Origin: an uncultured Alphaproteobacteria bacterium
GTDB taxonomy: Bacteria > Pseudomonadota > Alphaproteobacteria > RUG11792
Length of the DNA stretch: 64,000 bases
Direction: 5' to 3'
Assembly (NCBI GenBank): GCA_944390585.1
Contig: CALXQI010000007.1
Coordinates: 1 to 64,000 of the forward strand
The number at the start of each line of letters is the position of its first letter. Positions within the stretch are counted from its first letter, which is position 1. A program made the translations under genes and the position numbers. Below the pieces are notes generated by a model. It saw only the letters and a program-made list of their open reading frames with translations, searched no databases and was not told the origin of the DNA. Shown here in pieces: positions 5,430-32,162 of this stretch.

Positions 5430-6093
5430 TACATTAAAAAATGGTCATAGAAAACGCGTATATAGTAAATTGGCTGAGAAATCATATATGCATGATTACG
5501 AAGTTGTTGAAATGATGCTGTTTCTAATTTTTAAGAGAAAAGACACAAAAGATATTGCAAAAATTCTACTAAATAAATTTGGCTCTATTGCAAATGTTTT
5601 AAACGCACCAAAACATGATCTTTTAGAAATACACGGTATAGGAGAATCTACATATAACGCATTTAGTATAATTAAAGCTGTAATAAATGCGTATAATAAA
5701 GAAAGAATACAAAAAACAGATATATTGAGATGCTATGATGATGTTTTAAAATACTTACAATCTAACATGAATTATTTGAAATACGAAGAATTGCGTATAT
5801 TGTTTTTAAATAATGCAAATCATCTTATTAAAGATGAAGTGATGCAAAATGGAACAATCGATAGTATAAATGTGGATAACAGACAAATAATTCAAAAATG
5901 TATTGAGATTGGCGCAAAGGCCATTATCTTAGTCCATAATCATCCAAGCAATGATCCAACTCCATCCAAAAAAGATATTACAACAACGCGTCTAATAATA
6001 GAAAGTTGCGCAATATTTGACATTATAGTTGTAGATCATATCATAGTATCTGCAAATAGATCGATTTCATTTAGAAATCTTGGATTATTATAA
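5422..6093 (+). CDS. radC: RadC family JAB-domain protein
   Basis: The 223-residue protein has an N-terminal UPF0758 domain with a helix-hairpin-helix ('LLEIHGIGEST', residues about 70-80). A C-terminal MPN/JAMM metal-binding domain contains 'LVHNHPSNDPTPSKKD', with the H-x-H-P-S and D ligands, and 'IVVDHIIVS'. It is the standard length for RadC. The family is found next to dprA in many bacteria and is linked by context to recombination, but its enzymatic activity is unknown. The start overlaps the end of dprA, implying coupled translation. Confidence 0.9.
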   Translation: MFNTLKNGHRKRVYSKLAEKSYMHDYEVVEMMLFLIFKRKDTKDIAKILLNKFGSIANVLNAPKHDLLEIHGIGESTYNAFSIIKAVINAYNKERIQKTDILRCYDDVLKYLQSNMNYLKYEELRILFLNNANHLIKDEVMQNGTIDSINVDNRQIIQKCIEIGAKAIILVHNHPSNDPTPSKKDITTTRLIIESCAIFDIIVVDHIIVSANRSISFRNLGLL

Positions 6094-6258
6094 CGTGCAA
6101 ATTAAGTCTAAATAAAAAAAGTTACTTTGGTAGCGTGCGTTCTATAATAGTCAACTAACACTCTTGTCAGAAAGGATTTATACTGTTGCTAATATTTTAG
6201 AAAACACTACATCTAAACCAGAGAGTAGTAATATTTATTACTTGAATATTGTATTATA

Positions 6259-26034: not shown

Positions 26035-27074
26035 CTAATTTTGAGGATGCATCAATTTTACATAAATACTAGCGAATTAGTAAAACACATAACTACAAAG
26101 CCATCTATGTATATCAGATACTACCATTAATGTGATATTCTATTCAAATTCTTGTATACATGCAAATTTTAAAACTTTTTATTTTATAAACAGTTAATTA
26201 AAATATATTTAGCAATGTGTTAAATTTATCGACTACAATGATTAGTACAAGGAGATACATAGCAAAGTAATCCAACATTAAAACAATATTACACAATTAC
26301 AGTTAAGCTTGAATATCAAACTAAAAGTTAAATAACTATTTAGTATTAGTAGAAAAATTCATTATACAACTAAAAAGTTAATTAAGAATCTTTTTTTATC
26401 AATGTATTAAATTTATTAACTACAATGATTAGTATAAGGAGATACATAACAAAGTAATCCAATATTAAAACAATATTACACAATTACAGTTAAGCTTGAA
26501 TATCAAACTAAAAGTTAAATAACTATTTAGTATTAGTAGAAAAATTCATTATGCAACTAAAAAGTTGATTAAGAATCTTTTTTTAGCAATGTATTAAATT
26601 TATCAACTACAATAATTAGTATAGGAGAACACATAACAAAGTAATCCAATGTAAAAATAATATTCCACAATGACAATTAAGATCTAATATTAATAATAAC
26701 ATTCATTATACAATGCAATGTAATTAATTTTTCTAATACTAACTTCACTACAATTTTAATTAGCATGTACTGGATACATAAATAATATTAATCAATGCTG
26801 TACAAGTTTATACATGCTAATGTCATGAATAAATTTACAATTAACTGATAGTAGTAAGTCTTGTAGTACAATACTGCGCTCACTAATAGAATACAGGATT
26901 ATTCATTGTTAAAAATTACGCGCATTTAATTTCTAAATATTTTGCCACACAGCATAAACCAGCGTGCATTCACATACTTAAATAAGCTAAGCCAACCACA
27001 TAAAACACTGCAAAGAGCAATGCCTAACCCACAATTAATGATAAATTATAAAACATCACATGATATTCAATAAG
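26035..27074. other. 1-kb AT-rich gene-free region downstream of the rRNA operon
   Basis: No open frame of coding character was found on either strand. The left half holds a 187-bp tandem repeat. The right half (26700-27070) is unstructured AT-rich DNA leading to the 5S rRNA. The rRNA operon terminator should lie here, but I cannot point to a convincing hairpin. Confidence 0.5.
26198..26700. repeat. 187-bp tandem repeat, about 2.7 copies
   Basis: The segment 'TACAATGATTAGTA' recurs at 26234, 26421 and (as TACAATAATTAGTA) 26608, exactly 187 bases apart. The first two copies are nearly identical over the whole unit ('CAAAGTAATCCAA', 'TTAAGCTTGAATATCAAAC', 'AGTATTAGTAGAAAAATTC'); the third diverges after about 110 bases. 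No frame is open through the unit. Confidence 0.9.
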
Positions 27075-27190
27075 CCTGGCAGCGTTCTACTTTTCCTCTT
27101 GCTTAAGCAGAAGTATCATCGACGCTGAACGGTTTCACTGCCGAGTTCGGGATGGGATCGAGTGTGTCACGTTCGCCATAACTACCAAGC
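27075..27190 (-). rRNA. rrf: 5S ribosomal RNA
   Basis: The minus strand shows the conserved 5S core, seen on the plus strand as 'TTTCACTGCCGAGTTCGGGA' followed by 'TGGGATCGAGTGTG'. It is the last gene of the rRNA operon, downstream of the 23S. Ends are estimated from the pairing of the terminal helix. Confidence 0.93.
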
Positions 27191-27220: not shown

Positions 27221-30052
<2,832 letters not shown>

Positions 30053-30220: not shown

Positions 30221-30296
30221 TGGTGGAGGTAAACGGGATCGAACCGATGACCTCATGCTTGCAAAGCATGCGCTCTCCCAGCTGAGCTATACCCCC
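30221..30296 (-). tRNA. tRNA-Ala (TGC)
   Basis: A 76-base cloverleaf with encoded CCA. The acceptor has the alanine identity pair G3-U70. The anticodon arm is CATGC-TTTGCAA-GCATG, giving anticodon TGC with normal T33. It sits in the 16S-23S spacer, as in most bacteria. Confidence 0.95.
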
Positions 30297-30305
30297 AAAA
30301 TTTCC

Positions 30306-30381
30306 TGGTGGAGGTGGACGGGATCGAACCGACGACCTCATGCTTGCGGAGCATGCGCTCTCCCAACTGAGCTACACCCCC
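30306..30381 (-). tRNA. second tRNA-Ala, anticodon CGC with C33
   Basis: The body is nearly identical to the neighbouring tRNA-Ala(TGC), including G3-U70 and encoded CCA, and lies nine bases from it, so it is a tandem duplicate. The anticodon arm reads CATGC-TCCGCAA-GCATG. The loop therefore differs at two adjacent positions: T34 became C (anticodon CGC, reading GCG), and the nearly universal T33 became C. All stems still pair. Confidence 0.9.
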
Positions 30382-30389
30382 CAATTAGG

Positions 30390-30466
<77 letters not shown>

Positions 30467-30525: not shown

Positions 30526-32162
<1,637 letters not shown>

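Follow-up and report, generated by a model that had tools for sequence, protein, structure and literature searches.

The window analyzed here, a 64,000-nucleotide stretch of an alphaproteobacterial contig, contains a single rRNA operon on the minus strand in the order 16S rRNA, tRNA-Ile(GAU), tRNA-Ala(CGC), tRNA-Ala(UGC), 23S rRNA, and 5S rRNA (Table 1). The assembly to which it belongs (G000) comprises 876,557 bases in 16 contigs and is 94% complete. U33 is taught as an invariant tRNA base, the one that makes the U-turn of the anticodon loop, and one of the 2 spacer tRNA-Ala genes has C33 next to a CGC anticodon. ARAGORN, Rfam, and a base-by-base comparison agree that this additional tRNA-Ala, first proposed in a first-pass annotation of the DNA, is real.

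Table 1. Genes of the rRNA operon in the window.
Feature	Coordinates	Strand	Evidence
tRNA-Ala(CGC) with C33	30306..30381	-	ARAGORN, Rfam tRNA (60.9 bits), base-by-base comparison, kept in relatives
tRNA-Ala(UGC), paralogue with normal U33 (ARAGORN: TGC)	30221..30296	-	ARAGORN, Rfam (65.1 bits), base-by-base comparison
tRNA-Ile(GAU), rRNA operon spacer (ARAGORN: GAT)	30390..30466	-	ARAGORN, Rfam
16S rRNA, upstream in the same operon	30577..32080	-	Rfam RF00177
23S rRNA, downstream in the same operon	27243..30027	-	Rfam RF02541
5S rRNA, end of the operon	27074..27189	-	Rfam RF00001

The anticodon loop of tRNA-Ala(CGC) has 7 bases, U32-C33-C34-G35-C36-A37-A38, with position 33 at window base 30349 and the anticodon (34-36) at 30348-30346. 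Seven of 76 sites (7, 16, 33, 34, 49, 65, and 66) distinguish the CGC and UGC copies, and the comparison confirms the earlier reading of 2 adjacent loop changes, at 33 and 34, both T to C going from the UGC to the CGC copy. That the duplicate has kept its stems also stands: pairs 7-66 and 49-65 have gone from A-U to G-C in the CGC copy, both compensated, and the cloverleaf is intact, with all stems, G3-U70, and the 3' CCA present. The T stems of both window genes share a U50.U64 mismatch, a position occupied by U50-A64 in the CGC gene of 3 relatives (G002, G025, and G027).

Among the 44 distinct tRNAs of the assembly, this gene is the only tRNA-Ala(CGC) and the only one with C33, the other 43 all having U33. 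U33 was called almost invariant in the first-pass annotation, but C33 is common in phage tRNAs, as described below, and is less exceptional than claimed. tRNAs with C34 cover most NNG codons in G000 (Thr, Ser, Pro, Arg, Val, Gln, Lys, Glu, Gly, and Leu CAG), and tRNA-Leu(CAA) was not found among the 44 collected; such a full C34 set is unusual in a reduced genome of 0.88 Mb. GCG accounts for 131 of 1035 Ala codons (12.7%) in 46 window ORFs. ARAGORN also called a tRNA-Pro at positions 9757-9830 of contig C16 of the same assembly; its anticodon, AGG, has A34, which is unusual in bacteria, and its 3' end lacks an encoded CCA.

Conservation and rearrangement in related alphaproteobacteria

The same CGC gene with C33 is present in 6 other genomes, 4 from the same family (G001, G002, G025, and G027) and 2 from another alphaproteobacterial family (G058 and G364), so the conservation in related genomes that had been proposed as a check was found. 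All 6 relatives carry it in an Ile-Ala-Ala cluster in the rRNA operon spacer. Every same-family genome with a recognized spacer tRNA-Ala(UGC) has the gene (5/5, G000 included); in the remaining 30, neither spacer tRNA-Ala(UGC) nor the CGC gene was seen, most likely because assembly of rRNA operon spacers is poor in genomes of this kind. Its retention in relatives indicates that C33 is not a sign of lost function.

The spacer order is Ile-UGC-CGC in the 6 relatives versus Ile-CGC-UGC in the window, and in the same-family genomes the body bases track the anticodon, G7-C66 with CGC and A7-U66 with UGC. Together these observations imply that the order was swapped, for example through tandem duplication and loss. 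The tracking of body bases with anticodon also indicates that the CGC and UGC paralogues predate these genera, and the suggestion of a very young copy fails on this signature, which is common to the same-family relatives. Bases 28, 59, and 60 are alike in both paralogues within G000 or within G001 and unlike between the 2 genomes, which suggests gene conversion between the spacer paralogues; bases 7, 16, 33, 34, and 66 stay paralogue-specific in both.

The window gene shares 69/76 bases with its own UGC gene versus 61/76 with the CGC gene of G038, which rules out descent from the usual alphaproteobacterial tRNA-Ala(CGC). That usual gene has U33 on a different arm, for example CG UUCGCAA UG, which is unlike the arm of the UGC gene, and the window gene is not of that type. 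tRNA-Ala(CGC) was matched in 222 of 385 sampled alphaproteobacteria, with U33 in nearly all among the matches listed. Compared with ordinary bacterial tRNA-Ala(CGC) more generally, the window gene shares the CGC anticodon, A37, G3-U70, and the expected reading of GCG, but it has C33 in place of U33, it is sited in the rRNA operon spacer, and its arm has C31-G39 with U32-A38 where ordinary genes have G31.U39, A32.C38, U32.U38, and others. Neither this contrast with the usual alphaproteobacterial gene, nor the swapped gene order, nor the recurrence of C33 in unrelated bacteria had been seen in the first-pass annotation.

Distribution of C33 and its association with the anticodon arm

A pattern scan for C33 tRNA-Ala(CGC) across 84,980 species genomes yielded 48 stretches, 46 of them tRNA-Ala(CGC) with C33 and 2, in Nocardia, that look like misassigned tRNA-Cys loci. 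The 46 genes, most of which have an anticodon arm of the tRNA-Ala(UGC) type, span about 5 bacterial classes, with carriers among the Bacilli (Geobacillus, Parageobacillus, lactobacilli, Alicyclobacillus, Tuberibacillus, and a Paenibacillaceae bacterium) as well as Lachnospiraceae and further Clostridia, rumen Bacteroidales, Myxococcales, Sandaracinus, a deltaproteobacterium, and alphaproteobacteria. The variant is nonetheless rare overall: U33 predominates in tRNA-Ala(CGC) from the sampled Bacilli, Clostridia, Bacteroidia, and Myxococcota, and among the matches listed for Alphaproteobacteria.

Geobacillus, Alicyclobacillus, and Tuberibacillus each have a CGC gene that, over a 40-base stretch from D arm to anticodon arm, matches a UGC gene of its own genome except at 32-34 or 33-34, and these near-identical pairs point to separate local origins in the 3 Bacilli. 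In Myxococcales and a deltaproteobacterium, the C33 gene has the arm CUAGA-CUAG, elsewhere seen with A32-U33, and a change of A32U33 to U32C33 would be a second route to C33. At the Geobacillus locus (6000-6256), tRNA-Pro(CGG), tRNA-Ala(CGC) with C33, and tRNA-Ser(CGA) adjoin, making 3 tRNAs for NCG codons.

Across the sampled bacterial genomes, C33 goes with a particular arm. The tRNA-Ala(UGC) type, with C31-G39 and A or C at 38, accounts for 7 of 9 distinct C33 arms versus 0 of 50 distinct U33 arms (Fisher p about 1e-7, in a test that ignores phylogeny), and U33 with C34 on a UGC-type arm was not seen in these genomes. Nine of the 50 U33 arms have G31-C39 with U32-A38 and are not obviously weak, a point against the detuning role proposed below for C33. 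Of 399 Pseudomonadota genomes, none had C33 in a tRNA-Ala of another anticodon (UGC or GGC), and among 367 distinct bacterial tRNAs, from loci chosen for Ala and not at random, C33 occurs only in tRNA-Ala(CGC) and in one doubtful Nocardia tRNA-Cys.

The covariation of loop and arm with anticodon is thus an association in bacterial samples, with exceptions in phage tRNAs. In phage contigs, where the scan pattern for C33 tRNA-Ala(CGC) matched nothing, 94 of 96 tRNA-Ala(CGC) have U33, and 6 of 81 with U33 have the C31-G39, A/C38 arm. Two C33 tRNA-Ala(CGC) with other D arms were found in phage loci. Many isotypes of phage tRNA have C33, among them Ala(UGC), Ala(GGC), Val(GAC) (9 of 19 distinct genes), Gly(UCC), and Ile(GAU), the C33 Ala loci here having been selected by search; these phage tRNAs resemble the window gene in having C33, in Ala as in other isotypes, but their anticodons and arms are unlike. 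These exceptions mean that the rule linking C33 to the arm is not absolute and that C33 is not confined to CGC in every setting. An absolute need for C33 when CGC is placed on a UGC-type arm, which holds in the sampled bacterial genomes, is therefore broken in phage contigs, and C33 as a universal mark of tRNA-Ala(CGC) is ruled out by its presence in many phage isotypes.

Two structural explanations were also discarded. RNA folding allows U33 to pair with A37, which C33 cannot do, but the normal UGC gene has the same potential pair, so that loop misfolding leaves the link between C33 and C34 unexplained. A shifted loop, with U32 as the turn and CCG as the anticodon, was dropped because Geobacillus has C32.

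Probable decoding of GCG and the possible role of C33

Taken from gene sequences and their distribution, the reading that we regard as probable overall is that the window gene encodes a functional GCG-reading elongator re-made from tRNA-Ala(UGC), with C33 most likely detuning it. The component claims differ in strength. That this tRNA is the dedicated GCG decoder of the cell is very probable: of the 3 functions floated earlier, GCG reading is the best supported, the gene being the only tRNA-Ala(CGC) and GCG making up 12.7% of the sampled Ala codons, and a GCG reader fits the pattern of C34 tRNAs for most NNG codons in G000. That C33 was selected as a detuner is nearly, though not quite, an even proposition. 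More tentative is the broader proposal of convergent tuning, in which re-making a GCG reader on the arm of tRNA-Ala(UGC) would demand the change of U33 to C33, and U33 would belong to the extended anticodon instead of being invariant.

Such a history would involve a tandem copy of the spacer tRNA-Ala(UGC) with the changes U34 to C34 and U33 to C33, the new gene taking the place of the U33 tRNA-Ala(CGC) found in many other alphaproteobacteria. Its position suggests that it would be transcribed together with the rRNA operon, and the product would presumably be charged by AlaRS through G3-U70 and decode GCG as an elongator. Pairing of the CGC anticodon with GCG would comprise 3 G-C pairs and, on an arm that suits UGC, could be too strong; C33 may then weaken the U-turn, offset the strong pairing, and limit near-cognate misreading, such as that of GUG (G35.U2).

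Tuning of this general kind has precedents. Decoding is known to be tuned by pairs 31-39 and 32-38 (review PMC11231383); the same review notes that G-C-rich arms can hinder the reading of GC-rich codons, which fits poorly with a simple model of pairing that is too strong. E. coli tRNA-Ala(GGC) is tuned by A32-U38 (Ledoux 2009 and Murakami 2009, as cited in PMC11231383). That tRNA-Ala likewise has an anticodon made up of G and C alone, with an unusual base elsewhere in the loop, but in the window gene the unusual base is at 33 instead of 32-38. The tRNA-Ser(CAG) of Candida albicans, with G33, is likewise an elongator with a conserved base other than U33, there with lowered, medium decoding efficiency (PMC1991585); it differs in having G33, in being eukaryotic, and in its tie to codon reassignment, codon identity being unchanged here. 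Eukaryotic initiator tRNA-Met also has C33 in a functional tRNA (PMC9023262), but as a P-site initiator, unlike the elongator tRNA-Ala considered here. In yeast tRNA-Gln(CUG), the change U33C gives a phenotype of poor decoding (PMC3664417).

The strongest alternative, though an unlikely one, is that the tRNA decodes GCG while C33 is simply tolerated: TT would have changed to CC in tandem with neutral or slightly harmful effect, become fixed in small populations, and stayed unrepaired because tRNA-Ala(UGC) also reads GCG. The reduced host genome and possible coverage of GCG by tRNA-Ala(UGC) are consistent with this, as are the many phage tRNAs with C33 and the partial function of C33 in yeast (PMC3664417). 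Mere tolerance is harder to reconcile with the joint recurrence of C33 and C34 across several classes, free-living species of Geobacillus and Parageobacillus among the carriers, with the absence from the sampled bacterial genomes of the simpler combination of U33 and C34 on the same arm, and with the survival of C33 through apparent gene conversion with a U33 sister.

The remaining alternatives are weaker still. Because C33 should lower use on the ribosome, the gene might specify an alanyl-tRNA kept away from decoding, for example to supply alanine to lipids or the cell wall, or to act as a regulatory RNA; examples from other bacteria are alanyl-tRNA donors and non-proteinogenic tRNA-Gly. A donor would have no need of CGC, yet in bacteria C33 goes with C34 and was not met with other Ala anticodons in Pseudomonadota. 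The gene is moreover the sole tRNA-Ala(CGC), lies in the spacer beside normal decoders, and shows only the compensated pairs, and no specialized changes, in its acceptor and T stems, and we consider this function improbable. The regulatory or non-translating role raised in the first-pass annotation is accordingly disfavored, as is also indicated by the use of GCG. Editing of C33 to U33 after transcription, giving an ordinary mature tRNA, is compatible with the DNA data, and C-to-U tRNA editing is known in other systems. It would, however, need a deaminase acting on one isoacceptor in several unrelated classes, we know of no bacterial editing of C33, and the idea seems to us slightly more improbable than a non-decoding tRNA. 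A decaying copy or an assembly or sequencing error, which could be read into the rarity of C33 and a slightly lower Rfam score than that of the sister gene, is practically excluded, since the compensated pairs, the lack of uncompensated stem breaks, and conservation over 2 families and 7 assemblies rule out a pseudogene and refute decay, and the same C33 and C34 in independently assembled relatives leave practically no room for a misread T33.

The C33 tRNA-Ala(CGC) thus looks like a working, kept adjustment, real, conserved, and recurrent. A limited search of open-licence papers turned up no report of a bacterial tRNA-Ala(CGC) with C33. What is new is this variant, tuning by bases around the anticodon being already established (PMC11231383), and its interest is tempered by the frequency of C33 in phage tRNAs. 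It also illustrates how an organism with a reduced genome can retain its C34 tRNAs in full, one of them being re-made from a neighbor in the rRNA operon. More widely, a conserved bacterial elongator without U33, apparently recurrent with the same change to C34, provides a natural case in which to test whether the structure demands U33 or U33 is one more adjustable part of the extended anticodon.
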